Origin: Rhytidiadelphus loreus
Taxonomy: Eukaryota; Streptophyta; Bryopsida; Hypnales; Hylocomiaceae
Length of the DNA: 64,000 nucleotides
Reading direction: 5' to 3'
NCBI GenBank assembly: GCA_947034895.1
Contig: OX344765.1
Location: 5,771,001-5,835,000, forward strand
This document shows, in pieces, positions 1,691 to 50,348 of the stretch. Both the position numbers and the translations under genes were made by a program. Every line of letters starts with the position of its first letter. The first letter of the stretch is position 1. Under the pieces are notes generated by a model. It was given only the letters and a program-made list of their open reading frames with translations, made no database searches and had not been told where the DNA came from.

Positions 1691-4600
1691 TAACTCCTAA
1701 AAGCCCAAGGGGTTTGGACAATACACAAATGTGTTATAAAATATATAAGTTCTATAACTTTTTTCGGAAGTTTGCATCAAAGAAGATAATGTGAAGTGTG
1801 AAAAGTAGAAAGTATTCTTACGTTCAAAATTCTAAAATTATTTTCATATTCTGTACAAATGAATTTTGAAGATATAACTTCAGAAGTTCACCAAAAAAAC
1901 ATTTTCTATCTTTAGCATTTGAATTTTTTTTTCATTGGTCAAAATTGTGGTTTCTATTGATTTGTGAAAAAAATGCATAAGATCTAGTAATGAGAACATC
2001 AACACTTTCACCATGTAGTAAGTTTTTAAACACTAAGCCAATTCTAAACACTTTGTGCTATTCTCTTATCATTTTGGTTTGAACGTAGCAATCCTAGTTT
2101 TGAATATAAATATTGAAAGACAATCTAATCTTTTAAAAGAAAAACTTGATGAAAAAAGTTTTCTTTTGCCTGAAAATTCTACCTAAAGTTGGGTAGCAAC
2201 TCCAAAATGATATCTTAAGCACTTAGGAGATAAGAACAAAACTACCTTATTTTTCATTTACATGTATTTGTGAGTCAAGCTACTCTATAGAAGTGTTTTG
2301 AGACTACATTTTGTCCAGCAAGGCCTTGTAGTTGACTATGTGGCATAATAATCTCCCTTGTAATAGAATATACTTTGAGAAGGCATTTTTATTTTGAACT
2401 CCTAAAAGACACTTTAGTAGGCTTGCTAGGCTTGCTAAGGTAGCATTGCTTATGACTTGCCTAAATTTTTCACTTTCAAATAGGTCTCCATTACATGGTG
2501 GCTACAAAAGCATAATACTAAAGTACATTGATATTGTCCCAAACTCACTCACTCACTCGCTCACTCAGTTGTGACAATGTATAAGCACCCCGTGAGATTA
2601 AAATCTTCCACTCTAGACATAGTCCTTGGAGATGTCTACCATTGTGGTTGCCAATAGTGGAAGTTTCTCATGTCATGCAAGGATTAGAAGCTAGTCATTA
2701 GCCACTCAATTTTCTATTTAGTATACGACTATTCTATACCCTAAAATGATATTGAGGATGTTTTGTGTCCTTTGGATGATTTCAAGACGGATTGTAGGAT
2801 GGAAAATAATAAATTTTCATCCAAATTTCCTCGGGGAGTTGCTTGAGTGCATTTTAAGTGAATAGTATTAAATATTCCCTCACTATTAGTAGCATTCTTA
2901 ATTTTACAAAAGAAGAAGACATTGAATTTGGATCACCTTTGTAGTATATTTTAGCTACTTCTTGCTCTATACTCTTAATGTGAATTTTAGCTATAAAAAA
3001 ATTTTAAATTTTTTTTGTGACCAACTAATGAAATGAATTTTAACAGGTATAATTTTTACTTTAATTGAAAAATCTTAGAATTTAACTATAGAATCTCTTA
3101 GTTAACTTGTTAAACCATATCCTTCTTAAATTTCATTGTGAAAAATCACATCAATTAGAAGATCATAAAAGTAATTCGTTTTCAACACTTTCCAATGTTC
3201 TAGTACTAGTCTATCTTTAATTGGATGATAAATTGATTACGAAGCAAACTATTCAATCCCTTAGCCCCTCAAAGCCCAACAATTTTTCAATGAATTGTCC
3301 CACTTTGATCTTTTTCTTGCACATGAATATGCTTGAATTTTTTAATTTTAACCGTACAAAAGTAAAGACTAACTTGTCTAGTCTCCAATGGAATTAATTG
3401 TGAAAGACTTTGACTGTTGGATTTTTAGATTATAACAATTTTGGATGATCAACTTTATAGGCAAAAATGCAGTTTCTGGAGAAGAAAAATGATAAGAAGA
3501 TGAATAATTCTTTTATACCCCCAAAAAAATTGTATTGGAATCTAAGGAAAATTTAATATTTTCTTAATTTAAAATTTTGAAAAATAAAAAACTCTCTCAA
3601 ATTTAAATAGAAGGTGTAGAAAGTTAAAACTAACCAAATTGAATCCTAATTATTTTGTGTTCTTAATCATACCAAATTGAACTTTTATTTTTAAAATTGC
3701 TAAAAATACAAATTTGAAAAAAATCTTTAGCCCTAGTCTCTTTGTACAAAGTAAAGACTACAAATTTTGAAGAAAATATTTTTTCCATCCCTACTATTCC
3801 TTTCATTGGAAAAGCATTATATTTGCTCCCTTTTTCTATTAGACTACATTTCCTAAATGAATTTTTAAATACTTCTCACATTCAAATTTTGAAAATCATA
3901 AATTGAAATAAGTTATGTAAACTTATTACTCTATAGGATCCTAACTTACAAAATATTGAAATTTGTTTCACCTACTCAAAATTTGCCATTGAAAATTTGA
4001 AGAAGACACATTATGTCCTCTTGGTCCTTGAATGGTTAAAAGACCAACTATTCTTTTGAATGGATAAATGCAAACTTGTTCTAAGCATACGAAATCTTGT
4101 TTTCTTCATCCATTTATTTTTTATAGATTATTTTTGTATGATATAAATTTTCAAAGCTTTCTATTTCAAATAAAAGCTTTGAGTATGTTTCACCTCACAA
4201 AATAGTTGCTTCATTTAAAATAAATAAAAACTTGAAAAAAAACTTGAAATTAAATAAAATATAAATCTCAAAATTCACCATGATTAGAACTCATCATCTC
4301 AAGTTTAAAAAAATTATTCTTTTGAATATTACATACATTTAATTTTCAATCAATCTGAAAAGGGATTTCTAATTTTTGGTTTCAAACTTTATTGAAAAAT
4401 ATTATTTGGTATTAATAGTAGTAGATCTAATAACATAGATATCACCTATAGGTCATATTTTATAACTTTTATTTTAAATCCATTATAAAATTATTATTCT
4501 AAGTTGCAATTTATGATACATCTTTTAAATTTTGAAAATCAAACTACCCCTCGTCCTCACTAAGGAATTGAAACTTTATATTTATTTATATAATATTAAT

Positions 4601-5430
4601 AAGTTGTATTGGATATTAGGTTTAGCTTTGTAATTTGTGTTGAAGACAATCTAATTATGTATATTCAAATGTCATGGCCCCCACTATAAATGCAACCTCC
4701 ATCTCATTGGTCTATTAAGTGAACCCATCTAATACTCCTATCTAATTTGCACAACTCTTGCTCTAAGCCCATTGACTTTAGATTCTCTATTACTTCATGC
4801 CTCGTGGCAAATCACCTAAATTTGTTGTTGTAGTCACAATATTCTAGAATTGTTTTATGTATATGCAAACTACTTAAATACAATATTTCATGGTGATTGA
4901 TTGGTTATGATACTTGCTATAGACAAGCTTTAGAGAGTCGCATATTCTTGCTTTGTTAAGGAGTTGTACGAAGTTAGAGTTGGAGCAAATGACATATTGG
5001 AGTGAATGCATGAGTTTTGATGTTATTAGTGCATCTACATCTTATCACAACAATGGGTGGTGACAACAATAATGGATGTCCCTATTGCAATTAGAATGAT
5101 GGAACTTTGATTCACCATAGCTATCAAACATGGCTTTTTTTTGGCTTTCTAGTGCTAGATTGCACCCCAAAAAAACAATTTGGCTAAAAAATGGTAAAAT
5201 AATTGTGAAGTTTTCGCCAAAAAACTTCAAATTAAAAAGAAAATCGTGAATGAAATCGCCAGATTGTGGATGAAAATAGAATTAGAGACATGTGAAATGT
5301 CCGAATGTGATCTTTTCTATCCAAATTGTGGATGAATGCTGAAATTTAGAGCACCACCATAACATTATATATCGCCACTTTGGCACTTTATAAAAAATGA
5401 AAAAAAAGAAGACCTGCTATCAAATATGTA
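1691..5430. other. AT-rich intergenic DNA
   Basis: This stretch is strongly AT-rich, with stops in all frames and no recognisable exon, RNA gene or full transposon. A CTCACTCACT-type simple repeat occurs near 2543-2568. Confidence 0.6.
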
Positions 5431-7265: not shown

Positions 7266-8287
7266 CATTAGTGTCAACTTTCTCACATTCACTATAATAG
7301 CTTGTGTCAATGCAAAACATCCTTCCACTTAGTGTAGAGTCAACAAAGATTTTGGACTTACAATTGGAAACATGGTTCATGGAAATGACCCATAAGAAGA
7401 TCGACACCTTGTCTAATCAATCATGTAAGTCTTCTTGTGGATCATTTCTATAGTTTTGTTGATTGTGTTTGTACTTGTATAATTGTATCCATTGTATTAG
7501 CTGTGGATCTTCTTGTGATTATTTCCTTAGTCTAAGCAAACCATGATTTCTTTATAATTGATAATCTTGCTAAAATGGCAGTCGTTCCAAAACTTTGGCA
7601 CTCTTATAGTTTAGACCACATAGTCTAAAATCTATACGTGTCCTAAATGGTTTACCCCACACAACTTGAAAATGGTGTATGGAATATCACCATTTTAACA
7701 AAATTCCCTATTATAATCATTGCATCTTTGATGCTATATCTTTGTTACAATCCTCCTCCCAACGGTATATCTCCTTAACCCTTGAATGCCGGGCGAGTCA
7801 CCATGGAAATCGTCTGTTTTCTTATTGTGTGAACTGTTGGCTTAAAAGAAGCGCTCATTGGAAGGCAAACTACTGTAAAAGATGTTCCCTTTCCACACAA
7901 ATTTTGGAGGATGAATAGTTGTACTTTTGTCCCACATGGAGAGATTCTTTGTCATTCATCGGCCAAAAAACGTCCTCCGCATTGTTTATGGGTTAACCAT
8001 TGAAGGCTGAACCACAATGGGCTTAAGTTAGAAACTGTCTGCCTGAGAGACTCTGATACTTTCATACTGAAAACCACTTGAATTAGAATCTGACATTTTC
8101 CCTTCCCTTTCTTCCCGACCCTGCCTTACCTACAATCTTGCACCTTCAATAAAATCATGGATGTGGCCCAACCACTGCACCTCATTTTTTACAAACAATT
8201 ATCTACGTAGCTAGAGCATTGATTTTTTTCAGAATGATTGAATTCAGAATTTTTGCACTCTAAACGAAGTGTGTATGTGCCGCCTAA
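7266..8287. other. Intergenic DNA, no gene recognised
   Basis: No exon-like segment with a known domain was found on either strand. Confidence 0.45.
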
Positions 8288-44355: not shown

Positions 44356-47300
44356 TCATGAAGGATTACTACTAGTTGGATCTTCAGGTACCTGCAAATC
44401 TGACCAATCCTCATTGTGTCCATATTCTACAGCGTGCAAGGACTTGGAATACTCTAGTATTACAACAGCTTGCAGATCATCGTCTGCAATCGTTTCACTC
44501 CCGAGAAGCATTAGGATGGCTCGAGGAGTCGTAGGTCGTAGATCAGGGTTATCTAGTGTGCACAGAAGCGCTGTCCTAAGTGACCTCAAGGCCTGGTCTT
44601 TGTCAAAATTGCCATCTAACCTCGAGTCTACAAGGTTTAGCAAAACCTGGTCATCGCCCTCTGTTTGAGACTGTTTATACATGCACCGAACCTGCATGAA
44701 TTAAGAAAAGCGTTAAATCAATTATACAGGCACACTTAACCAATACATCTTGTTAGCAGATATCAAAATTGAAGGATGCAGGTTCTGGAAGGGATCTCAG
44801 GCTGAGACTACTGAAAAAAAAGATCAAATGACGAAATCAGATCCAAAACCTGAGAGCCGATAAATAACACATTCGGATCCACCGGCAAGTTGCGCGCTTA
44901 CCCTGTCAACGAGGAAAAGCAACGATCCTGAAGGTGTCCGCTTCATGTTCAATTCACCAGTAATAATTTCCATCAATACCACCCCGAAGCTGTATACGTC
45001 CACCTTCTCTGTCAGCAGGCCTCGAGTAACGTATTCGGGTGCAACATATCCTCTGTAATGGCCATTTCCACCATCGTATGAGGAAATCTAGATAATTACT
45101 TTCTTACAAGCGCAAATCGATCTTCGATCATGAAGGAGACATGAAGGCCATTTAGTAGACCTGTTTCTGTGCTCAACAGATGTTTGGATAAATGTTCAAA
45201 AGAGAAATCTATGAGGTTCAAGGGTTATAAGAAAACTTACAACGTGCCAGCAACATTAGTCGTGAAGTGAGACTGTTCCTCTGGAAACAATTTGGCAATC
45301 CCAAAATCTGCGATTTTGGCTTCAAGATTACGATCCAGAAGAACATTGCTAGCCTTGATGTCTCTGTGTATGATTCTGGGTGTGACCTCGAAATGCAGAT
45401 AGGCCAGTCCTCGTGCAGTTCCCAGGGCGATGTTGAAGCGAGTTTGCCAATTAATATCTATTGCTTCCTTTGGACCACCTGTCACAACAAATCTCGGTGC
45501 AATGGTAGGACTCAATTGATGGCACGCTCCTTATTGATGGAAATGAAGGCGTACCAACATAAGGAGCTTCCAATATTGGAAGCACGTATGATCACAGATA
45601 ATGAATTTAAGATTCACGTTTCCAAATATCTCATACAACATTTACCAGTTAAGAAGGCAGTTGTCTCACCAAGAAGGGATTGACGAAGACTTCTGTTCTC
45701 AAGATATTCGTAGACCAGCAATCGGTGAAGTTTCTCTACACAGCATCCCCGCAACTTCACAAGATTTCGATGCTGGACTCGGCTTATGACTGTCACCTCG
45801 TTTAAGAACTCACGTGCTCCTTGCTTCGAATCCGCTGATAGTTTCTTCACAGCAACCACTGTGCCATCCTTGAACTTCCCCTGACATATGGACAATTCAG
45901 TTTGAACTAAAGAACAGAGAAATTTCACCTAAATACACGCAAGGAACAGAGGCAGAGAATTTGTCACTGTTTCAGAAGGTTCATTTTCCCTTGATATGGA
46001 GCTTAATACAGACAACTTCTCGTCTACAGGAATACCGAGTCAACAGGAATACCAAGTTCTCGGGAAATAAATGAGTAATAACGTAAATTTTTTTTATGTA
46101 CCAAATCAAGCGATTATTTTTATTATTCATTAGATTCCTTACGAGGTAGACTTCTCCAAAGCCACCTTCACCCAACTTTTCGTCCTTGTGAAACTTCTTA
46201 GTTGCAGACTTCAACTCCTTATAAGTGTACTGGTTCGTTGAGATGGACTGCCTTGCAAAATCTGAAAGAGAATGCAATTTTGTAAGCGAATAATACTGCC
46301 TAATGGTGCGTATCAAATCGGCCCTTGTTCCTCCACCACTACAATTATGAAGATAAAACAATGCACGACCATGAAAACCTGAAACAAATCCATATACAGG
46401 TGTTCATGTCTTACCTTCTTTAGTTTCTCGAATGGAGGTCCGAGCAGCTTTTTTCCTCAAAAGGAAGTATATGGAAACGATGGCGATTAAAACAATGGGG
46501 CCAGGTAAGATAGAGGCTAACAGAACGTTTGTGAGATCTCTTTTGGGAGGGTCTAGAAATGCACAATTATCGCAACACAGGTTCTTCAAATAGGTAATTC
46601 TTGGCGATTCGTTTCTGCCCAAATTTTGGGGGCAAAGGGCTTGATCGTGCCATTCCACTGGCTTGGTACACTTGCTAAGGTTGACCTGAGGTAGGACATA
46701 ACGGAACCACCGAAAGAGGCACAATGAGAATGCAGTTCGCGGCAAACATTACAAGCTAGAAACCAGTAGACATTGCCTAAACCTATCTGTTGGGAGTAAA
46801 ACTGCTACAAGACGATTCAAATACTCAACCTGAATCATTTGACAGGGTAGTGGAACGCTGGCGACGTTTGCAGCAATCAATCTCCGCTGGATAGCACTTG
46901 CAGCTTCAGATGAATTCACTATCACATCTATACCCGCTACTCCATAGAGAACTCCCTCATTGATAACTGTACAACAACAAGAAACAAAAGTCACTTCCGG
47001 TGTATGGTATTCTTTCTTGGTTTTCTGATTAATATGCCTTATTATTAAGCAGCCCTCAATATCTCGATGAAAGCAAGTACGCTGCGTGGAGATTTTGTTT
47101 TATTATTGAAAACATGGTCTACAGCAGGCGGAGAAAAACTGACCTGGATAAGTAACAGTTGAAACCTTCCCTAATCCATCGAAGTCCTCATATACGTCCG
47201 TCCAGAACGTGCGGTTTGCTGTGATTCTCAACGTCGCTTGATAGTCGAAATATGGGCGCATGGCCCAAAGCGGATTCCGTTGCGCATCCAATAGGCTGAC

Positions 47301-50300
47301 ATAGTTGACGGTGCTATTCATTAGGCATGACAAACTACGGAGTTCCGTAAGTAGATCAGGTGTATTTTTCGTGTCATCTCCCAGGCTAAAAAAGAATACA
47401 ATCACATTTTCCAGGCTGAGCAACGTGACCATCTGTTGAAGAGCCGAATCATTGAAGGCAGCACTCTTTGCGAAATTTCCGTCGGTCAGCACTACGATCA
47501 TCTGTTGAGGACATACAGAGAGGGAAGGAAAAGAATCCTTTAATATAATAATAACCATAACGTCCAAAGTAGATTTCTGTACCACAACATCGAACTTTTG
47601 TAGTTCACTATCAGGCAGAGTGCAGTATACCTTGAGGATACTGGTCGAGTTGAAGGCTGTTCTTGCTTTCTCGAATCCACTCGTTATGTTTGAGAACCCG
47701 TGTTGGCCGTTCGTCAACGATGTAATTTTAAAGGTGGATATCAGGTCAGAACTTTCTTCTATTCCACCCATGCCAACAACCACCTGCAGTTCCATGTGCA
47801 GAGAAATGAGAGCACAGGACGACGTTATTTGTCTACACATCCTGAAAGGGTTTGCAATTCGTCACTACTGCAGCCCATACAGCAGAAGAACTAATGTGGC
47901 ATCAACAGAATGATGAAGAGGAAAAGGTGCAGGAATTACGGAGGTTGGTTGCAGCAAAGTTGCTCGAGTAGAGTCGAATGTAATCAAGTTGATGCGGTCA
48001 GAGGGCCGAAATGTACCAAATAGGTCTTGAATGACAATCTTGGAATGGATGAAAGTAGAATCATCTACTTGCCCTGTATCGAGAAGTACAACAAGGTCCT
48101 TTACAACTGATACTGCTGTAATATACCTGCACAATGTTATTCTAATAAATCAAGATGTGAAGAAATATGGTCTAGCTCACGAGGAGCACATAATTAAACA
48201 AAAAATCTCTATGGGATATGGGAATGCAGAAAACCTTAAAAAAGATCTCTAATGGAATTTTGCATCAACCTAAATTTCTATATCAGTCTTCCGTCATGCT
48301 TGTGGGATTCCAGGCCGGAGGGATATTACATTCCAAAATAAGTGTTTAGGCTTGAAGCCACGATACGCCGACAAAGAAGATTTCCTCACATGTGGGATGG
48401 CAAGGATTACTTAGGAGTTTGCAGAGATAAACCGGCGACAGAACAAGATCAGACCATCTCAACGATTGCGGCTCACTGCTAGTCAAACTCAGTTCCCGAA
48501 ATGTAGACGAAACCCTATCATGCTGTTAGAATTATGGCTTTTCATAACACGGCTATGGCAAACTGCAGGTCTCTCGGCGGTCGCATTACATTACCAGGGC
48601 CGTTTCCGAGGGTCGTACTCGATGCAACCCTTGTCTGGATCAGCCTCCTGATTTCAATAAACAGGAACTCAGCTTTAGTACTCGATGAGGCAGCTGCACC
48701 GATTTCCTCTCTTCACAGGCAATGTTTCTTCCGACTGTACATAATTCATAGAAAAGAAATTACTCTCAAACCTAAAAGGAGGCTCAAAATCAGCTGCCCA
48801 AGTACATACTCGGCCAGGGTAACCTCGCCATGCGCCCTCAGCAGATCCATAGTAATTCCAAAAAGTAAGTTGTGAGGAAATAGATTCACTGCTAGCAGAA
48901 AATTGAAGATTGGTTTGAGCGCAGATTGATCTCGTAAGCTCTGGACTCAGGTCTGAAAAATTCTGGAATTGTGGAGGAACGCTGCAACCACAGAAAATTA
49001 CTCAATAAGGTCAGCAAGATATCAATTGAAACTGGATGTCGACGTATCCGCAAAGAAAAAGCATACCAGACAAGACAACCAGGTAGCATGTCGCAGAAGT
49101 TGAGATCACATCGAATCTCCCAATATAAAGAAGAAGATTTCGATCGGAATTTCGTGGCTAAGGCCTACCAAGTTTCTGATTGTGACCTCCAGGTTGCCTC
49201 AGTCTCCTCAACCTCATCTCAGAAATTGAATTCTGCATACTCGAAGGCGATTTTTCGCATAAATGACAATAGGCATGCATCTACTAATAGTACATGTTCC
49301 AGAGATGCCTCAAGATGTAGATGTTCGATTACTCCTCCAGGTTTTCATCTTTAGCGGCTGTGGAAGCATTGAGCTAAAATCGAATGATCACGAGGTGATC
49401 GTTTACTCGTGTCAAAATTCAATTCTCGAGCCTCGCGATTCTACGGCCGACTTCAATTCGGACTTGGAATTGTAAAGGAAAACCTCAATCAGAAGTGATT
49501 CATTTCTTCAATCAGCTTGATTATCCACTCGACCAACTACGTACACCATTGAACAAAGAGACTCGTGCTTGCCTCAAGTCTTTTCTTTACAGTCCACCTT
49601 TACATATCATATTTCAGAGTAAGAGCAGAAGAGTCGCTCACCGCACAAAGCCATTTCTGATGAAATCCACCTTTAAGTGCTCGCATGGCGCACTGCTGTT
49701 GATGGAGCTCGTACATTCTGAGACATTACTGGGGGCTTTGATACAGGTGAACTTGTCTTTGGTTGTTGGCGAACAAGAATGACGGGAACATTTGTCAACA
49801 CAATTTGACAAACCTGCGCGCCCGCACATTTCAAGGAATGATATACCATAAACCTAAAATTCAAAGGAAGTCTCCTGCTGACTCAGTTGTATAATGTGCA
49901 GTGACATGTGCAAATTTTCCCATACGTGAGTCCACATGAGCGAGTAGATGCATCCGGAGAAGATTCCTACAGAACACACCCAATATTCCGAATTCGGTAT
50001 AGGTGTGCTTGTCAGGACCGGTATAGCTATCTAATACAAGTCGTGAACACATTAACAAGTCACCAGCACACTAAAATACGAATTAAACTCTCGTAGCAAG
50101 AATTGAAGGAAGAATATAGAGAACCGATGGGAATATTTACCGCAATCGGTCGACTCCGCTGCAAGTTGCAAGAACAGAGCATGGCGGGAGAGGAGCTCGA
50201 CTTTATGTTCCTTGTCGTTGAGAAAATTATCTACCTCAAGGACTGTGCAGTTGCCACAAGGGCTGAGTTGTCCTGCTGCAGGTGTTATAATGATCCACGA

Positions 50301-50348
50301 CACCAGCAGTAGCAACATAAAACCACAAGGCGAACCGAACTCCTCCAT
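44356..50348 (-). CDS. VWA-Cache receptor-like kinase, 14 exons
   Basis: Exons (high to low) 50348-50141, 49813-49642, 48981-48810, 48647-48595, 48126-47940, 47783-47631, 47501-47144, 46966-46830, 46685-46415, 46261-46143, 45880-45670, 45478-45241, 45052-44903 and 44691-44356 join in frame into 921 residues. In order: signal peptide (about 1-26), Cys-rich segment (30-125), first Cache part ending YDPRKRPWY (195-203), a VWA domain (about 212-395) with VVLTDG, second Cache part with WTDVYED...LG (415-426) and GVAGID (443-448), Cys-rich stalk, transmembrane helix (about 534-556), then a serine/threonine kinase. Kinase motifs are complete: GEGGFG (601-606), VAVK Lys622, HRD 718-720 (RD type), DFG 738-740 and APE. 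The kinase resembles LRR-VIII/DUF26-type plant RLKs. The ectodomain has no LRRs; it matches the split VWA-Cache module of alpha2-delta calcium-channel subunits. Role inferred: plasma-membrane receptor for a small ligand. Confidence 0.88.

Follow-up and report, generated by a model that had tools for sequence, protein, structure and literature searches.

The gene and its product

The window analysed here is a stretch of 64,000 nucleotides from the moss Rhytidiadelphus loreus (contig OX344765.1, positions 5,771,001 to 5,835,000 of the forward strand), in which a first-pass annotation had proposed a gene joining a VWA domain, set within a Cache domain, to a plant receptor-like kinase (RLK). In our refined model the gene lies on the minus strand (50348-44356) and takes up 6 kb; its 14 exons, separated by 13 introns with GT-AG borders, encode 921 residues without an internal stop (Table 1). 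The exon borders were refined with P0001, a Ceratodon homologue 70% identical over the ectodomain query, and an independent spliced alignment of P0001 to the window returned the same 13 introns; it covers residue 14 to five residues short of the stop, P0001 diverging at both ends. Model and alignment agree with the coordinates and exon number given at first, and with the claim that the exons join without a frame break. A draft of 15 exons, built from splice signals only with all sites GT-AG and chosen by eye, was rejected when P0001 showed one of its exons to be intronic and three of its borders to be wrong. This draft was the query of the Pfam scan and of the initial searches for PDB matches and homologues; apart from two places in the ectodomain, where it is longer by a net 56 residues, it is identical to the final protein.

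Table 1. Exons of the window gene (positions in the window) and what each encodes
Feature	Position	Strand	Content
Exon 1	50141..50348	-	Start ATG, predicted signal peptide (hydrophobic residues 8-26), N-terminal part
Exon 2	49642..49813	-	Cys-rich N-terminal ectodomain part; acceptor set by P0001
Exon 3	48810..48981	-	First Cache half (FWNYYGSAEGAWRGYPGR; Trp178 = gatekeeper position)
Exon 4	48595..48647	-	Ligand motif part 1, YDPRKRPW (Y195, R200, W202); motif as defined in the available part of PMC9901441
Exon 5	47940..48126	-	Y203 and start of VWA insert; degenerate metal site LLDTGQV (D218, G220 replacing Ser)
Exon 6	47631..47783	-	VWA
Exon 7	47144..47501	-	VWA end (LTDGNF) and start of second Cache half, Y419 (FWTDVYEDFDG)
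Exon 8	46830..46966	-	Cache domain end, D448 (GVAGIDV)
Exon 9	46415..46685	-	Cys-rich stem and predicted transmembrane helix (hydropathy peak, residues 534-552)
Exon 10	46143..46261	-	Juxtamembrane part and kinase G-loop (GEGGFGEV, residue 601)
Exon 11	45670..45880	-	Kinase VAVKK (residue 619), alpha-C FLNEV (residue 635)
Exon 12	45241..45478	-	Kinase HRDIKASN (residue 718, RD type), DFG (residue 738)
Exon 13	44902..45052	-	Kinase APEY (residue 764)
Exon 14	44356..44691	-	Kinase C lobe, tail and stop codon; agrees with P0001 spliced alignment

The hydropathy profile of the window protein, taken from a simple scan rather than a trained predictor, has two peaks, which we predict to be a signal peptide and a single membrane helix. 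The ectodomain holds 12 N-glycosylation sequons. A Pkinase match (E-value 6.4e-48 in the Pfam scan of the draft) together with the motifs GEGGFGEV, VAVKK, HRD, DFG and APE bears out the description of a complete plant RLK kinase, and the solved kinases nearest to the family include BAK1, SYMRK and FERONIA. The same scan matched VWA_2 (3.6e-6) and, among Cache-type models, gave a weak match to MCP-like_PDC_1 (E 0.11); with the draft as query, the profile check suggested by the first-pass annotation gave matches to Pkinase and VWA_2 and no match to dCache_1.

Comparison with solved structures placed the VWA domain within the Cache domain. The draft ectodomain matched alpha2-delta-1 in the PDB with an E-value of 1.8e-9, in an alignment that covers the VWA domain and extends into the Cache halves on both sides of it. 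A nine-row profile of the family ectodomain matched alpha2-delta-1 at 2.2e-28, CACHD1 at 4.8e-18 and the amino-acid chemoreceptors PctB and PctA at about 1e-6. The fold of the window protein is taken from models of two homologues, P0001 and P0017 (about 30% identical); the ectodomain of P0017 was predicted to adopt a dCache-plus-VWA fold, and the Cache fold expected at first is thereby predicted for a relative. Sequence profile and homologue fold alike uphold the likeness to alpha2-delta and CACHD1. The fold searches with the full-length P0001 model listed kinases alone, because the kinase part fills the match list.

The putative ligand site and the VWA metal site

According to the available part of PMC9901441, the VWA domain of alpha2-delta-1 divides its amino-acid site into YxxxRxWY, on the first Cache half, and Y...D, on the second. 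The window protein reads YDPRKRPWY, VYEDFDG and GIDV at these places (Y195, R200, W202, Y203, Y419 and D448) and carries the dCache_1AA motif; in our alignment four residues separate Tyr and Arg in the window protein and in alpha2-delta-1 alike, against three as printed in that source. We aligned 33 ectodomains (the window protein, 27 homologues and 5 paralogues), 30 of them complete at the six motif places. The full set is present in 24 of the 30, with Y or F accepted at the first place. Five exceptions belong to the group called C below and have Gln for Arg, two of them also Gly for Trp, and one of those two His for Y419; the sixth is P0018, in which Phe stands at Y203. In all rows outside group C that have a letter there, R200, W202, Y419 and D448 are unchanged, and Arg is found in 26/26 such rows (groups A, B and D and the kinase-less forms).

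The metal ion-dependent adhesion site (MIDAS) of the VWA domain is degenerate throughout, the position of the first Ser being Gly in 33/33 rows (DTGQV in the window protein; the intact form is DxSxS). The gatekeeper residue varies across the family (W, Q, H, F, S, Y, E or L).

Relatives in bryophytes and their two kinases

Three homologue searches of 5.8 billion proteins, each of which scored the 7,990-7,993 candidates richest in shared words, gave 14, 13 and 14 matches. All those with an organism name came from Ceratodon, Physcomitrium, Sphagnum or Marchantia; the second search, made with a four-row profile, returned 13 proteins, of which one was new, and no new lineage. Neither vascular plants nor algae were among the matches, which, with candidates prefiltered by words, is no evidence of their absence. 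The question raised at first, which lineages have the fusion, is answered within these word-prefiltered lists by mosses such as Ceratodon and Physcomitrium, where the whole fusion has homologues. P0001 itself (KC19_VG339300) lies on a contig of 110.5 Mb, presumably the V sex chromosome to judge from the V in its tag. The Physcomitrium patens protein P0006 is labelled 'L-type lectin-domain containing receptor kinase IX.1-like' and has no lectin family match at E 0.1; the label probably derives from its kinase part.

The kinase-bearing members fall into four groups, A (with the window gene), B, C and D; in Physcomitrium, P0002 belongs to A, and P0006 and P0007 to B. Five more kinase fusions lie in the same genome (A2, B1, B2, C and D), all stop-free over their aligned length in models that miss 39 N-terminal residues of A2 and the very start of B1, B2, C and D. 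B1 and C form a local tandem pair, with the same orientation in a stretch of about 21 kb (G000 C4:40025500-40048500; L069, L070, L078). Other members appear to carry no kinase: P0024 from Ceratodon, P0025, and P0026 and P0027 from Marchantia have the ectodomain and a predicted membrane helix without a kinase match. Within the genome, L080, L081, L082, L109 and L110 are relatives that gave no kinase match in the stretches read with approximate models, L110 containing a stop; the match at L079 is limited to part of the first half. P0024 further matched five places and one pair (G000 C4:19.51-19.76 Mb, C1:71.67-71.69 Mb), and the one place read from each of these groups had no kinase match.

Intron positions tie the fusions together. 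The window gene and C have all 13 introns in common, in alignment column and in phase; A2 shows the same 13 phases with one intron two residues off, B1 lacks two of the introns and B2 one. Between D and A, three ectodomain introns coincide exactly in column and phase (235/2, 301/0 and 320/2) and two more lie within three columns, the remaining A introns being absent or displaced in D, which has 0/4 of the introns in the interior of A's kinase. Purifying selection acts on both parts of the protein: between the window gene and A2, for which synonymous sites are near saturation, the ratio of nonsynonymous to synonymous substitution rates (dN/dS) is 0.18 for the ectodomain, 0.04 for the first Cache part, 0.20 for the VWA domain and 0.04 for the kinase. 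In addition, P0008, P0010 and P0013 are fusion open reading frames (ORFs) of 927-956 residues that are intronless on contigs of 3.8-4.7 kb, and we infer them to be transcripts or cDNA because the window gene takes 6 kb and 13 introns.

These observations bear on whether the fused model is simply wrong, with two adjacent genes or a decayed copy in its place. The errors of the draft with its splice sites chosen by eye, and a model built from genomic sequence and a homologue, speak for such a mistake; the whole-fusion homologues of Ceratodon and Physcomitrium, six fusions in one genome with matching introns and no stops, and purifying selection on the ectodomain half and the kinase half alike make it exceedingly improbable. 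With the same fusion at five further loci of the genome and in other mosses, there is practically no room left for chance or a mis-joined model as its source.

The kinases themselves are of two kinds. We built a tree of 45 kinases, 25 from the family and 20 that were the best-matching others from the same genome. Groups A, B and C stood together beside the multi-exon kinases L104-L108 (support 94/89) and D stood elsewhere; a single clade for all family kinases was rejected (approximately unbiased test, p 2.2e-5). The sister group of the D kinases is poorly settled (74/29), and the tree program warned of long branches near D. Left out of this tree were L094, L096, L100, L102 and L103, where the pattern for cutting out the kinase was absent, P0002, an isoform in which part of the kinase is missing, P0014 and the proteins that lack a kinase. 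The ectodomain tree was made without the partial P0003, P0015 and P0023; P0002, P0018, P0019 and P0020 entered it with their kinase part attached, and a 60% filling rule removed the kinase columns. On a plain reading of these sequence comparisons, one ectodomain module appears to have met two unrelated kinases. L104-L108 are five near-alike multi-exon kinases that have the kinase introns 611/0 and 760/2 in common with the window gene, and they are possibly the kinase lineage on which groups A-C drew. The kinase-less forms may be ancestral or secondary.

The kinases of A and B are of the RD type, and those of C and D read HGD. Group C (P0009-P0012 and G000 C4:40.04 Mb), which combines Gln for the ligand Arg with HGD in place of HRD, likely has an altered ligand and a non-RD kinase.

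Comparison with known systems and proposed function

Several known systems each resemble part of the window protein. Like alpha2-delta, it has a dCache domain with a VWA domain inserted right after RPWY, an amino-acid motif split by that insert and the same predicted fold; unlike alpha2-delta, it has one dCache domain rather than two, no delta part or glycosylphosphatidylinositol (GPI) anchor, a degenerate MIDAS, and a predicted membrane helix followed by a kinase, and it comes from a plant. The family profile aligned only to residues 132-479 of alpha2-delta-1 (chain 6jp8_F), the second dCache and the delta/GPI part finding no counterpart, and residue 478 of the window protein is followed by a short stem rich in Cys and then by the predicted membrane helix. 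By sequence, the ectodomain is related to the alpha2-delta proteins of animal calcium channels, over their front half, and is not a member of that family, because only one of the two dCache domains is there. The dCache_1AA chemoreceptors of bacteria and archaea (PctA/PctB type) share the ligand motif and the profile match, whereas they have no VWA insert and are coupled to chemotaxis or other prokaryotic signalling rather than to an RLK kinase. Like plant RLK/Pelle receptors, the protein has the predicted signal peptide, the one predicted membrane helix and a kinase with its catalytic residues, yet its ectodomain lies outside the LRR, G-/L-lectin, LysM, malectin, WAK and DUF26 classes.

Seven ectodomain classes cover almost 70% of the RLKs of 350 genomes (PMC10834447), and the words 'VWA', 'von Willebrand' and 'Cache' are absent from that paper's main text as far as available to us. 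A plant kinase fused to vWA is known from wheat Lr9/WTK6-vWA, and such fusions arose at least three times in grasses, according to the accessible sections of PMC10260399; there, in contrast, the kinases come first, vWA/Vwaint is C-terminal and the described architecture has no Cache domain, and the same portion of the main text does not contain 'transmembrane'. The covered parts of the RLK and vWA papers PMC10260399, PMC3019232 and PMC12223298 hold no VWA-Cache-kinase architecture. Our literature search, which took in few subscription journals, found no Cache-domain receptor-like kinase and no moss RLK with an extracellular VWA domain, consistent with the original suggestion of a receptor class not described before. 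Features that go beyond the first-pass annotation are the intact ligand motif, the degenerate VWA metal site, the two unrelated kinases, the kinase-less carriers and the single dCache domain.

We read the 14-exon gene, with moderate confidence, as coding for one protein in which a relative of the VWA-split dCache domain of alpha2-delta is followed by a full RD-type RLK/Pelle kinase. Such a protein is likely to sit in the membrane as a receptor kinase and to detect amino acids, or small molecules like them, outside the cell. The receptor role is what we infer from this architecture, and we give about even odds to a proteinogenic amino acid, or a near analogue of one, as the ligand. In the proposed mechanism, R200 would bind the carboxylate of an apoplastic amino acid and D448 its amino group, with W202 and Y419 as an aromatic cage. 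Once the Cache domain closed, the stem would change its arrangement and bring the kinases together, and the paired RD kinases would phosphorylate each other; the VWA domain would offer a metal-independent surface for protein binding or dimerization, and kinase-less members could act as partners or decoys.

Several points weigh against ligand sensing, which draws on a sequence motif and models of homologues. Besides the missing dCache_1 match in the draft, dCache_1 scored 23.3 and 30.4 bits on P0024 and P0025, below the 45-bit cut-off. The full-length P0001 model is of moderate confidence (predicted local distance difference test, pLDDT, 73.8; predicted template modelling score, pTM, 0.54); confidence is lower in the first Cache half than in the rest, blocks within residues 61-190 scoring 44-84. 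Conservation of the motif residues could partly be structural, because the four invariant ones are 4 of 38 invariant columns among 411 ectodomain columns. To judge from group C (5/33 rows), not every member would be able to bind an amino acid through the Arg/Trp motif. Trp178 aligns, in the draft-to-PDB mapping, with a pocket Ala of alpha2-delta-1 that the consulted part of PMC9901441 links to bulky-ligand binding, and because Trp replaces Ala the predicted pocket may be narrower; poor binding of gabapentin and of bulky residues would be expected from it. The second Cache part, with a dN/dS of 0.29, is the least constrained of all.

The last value, with that of the VWA domain, exceeds that of the first Cache part, as would suit an ectodomain that binds a membrane or wall protein through VWA and Cache surfaces, its pocket being a relic or structural. 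The closest PDB relatives also act through proteins, alpha2-delta on channels (PMC9901441, in the part seen) and CACHD1 on Wnt receptors (PDB titles of CACHD1-FZD5 complexes). We consider such a protein-binding role unlikely, as the full pocket motif is retained in most complete rows and the loss of the MIDAS Ser in every row makes metal-mediated binding of the alpha2-delta-1 kind improbable. It is also conceivable, though we doubt it, that the same pocket takes another small molecule, such as an amine, a purine, an organic acid or a plant-specific metabolite. Pockets of dCache_1 are known to have shifted to amines (PMC10104139) and to purines (PMC11245519), group C has Gln at the Arg position as does the betaine receptor PacA (PMC10104139), all within the accessible text of these papers, and the gatekeeper residue is variable; against this stands the amino-acid-sensor Arg, invariant outside group C.

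The amino-acid receptor reading extends, tentatively, to the origin of the module. A scan of prokaryote contigs by the single RPWY pattern gave at least 47 confirmed loci. Among the matches listed, 32/47 are plain dCache proteins (35-42 residues between the motifs), 14 were left unsettled by the pattern, L032, L033 and L058 proving to be plain dCache on reading, and a VWA-sized insert was seen only in L021, where RPWY and the second-half motif stand 224 residues apart. L021 is a metagenome contig of Candidatus Hodarchaeota (Asgard; JAUUVJ010000055.1, ORFs 1808-3595 and 3592-4851). It reads YDPRLRPWY, then an intact MIDAS (DESGSMAG), then the second Cache half, with one in-frame stop upstream of the motif; the next ORF encodes a similar dCache protein that has no VWA domain. 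As a lead from one contig, this pair possibly pictures how the alpha2-delta module arose. A broader proposal, which we hold to be possible and still short of probable, is that bryophytes have amino-acid receptors of alpha2-delta type not described in the literature searched, in which an RD and a non-RD kinase were captured separately and kinase-less forms serve as partners. On this proposal the module, seen with its metal site intact on the Hodarchaeota contig, would be older than plants and animals and would have been lost in non-bryophyte plants.

If the sensing role is true, plants would have, in the product of the window gene, a cell-surface receptor that reads amino acids directly and signals through a kinase, its sensor being a module that in humans is the target of gabapentin; the predicted pocket residues make that claim testable. 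The family also presents one ectodomain on two unrelated plant kinases, and it bears on how the alpha2-delta architecture originated outside animals.

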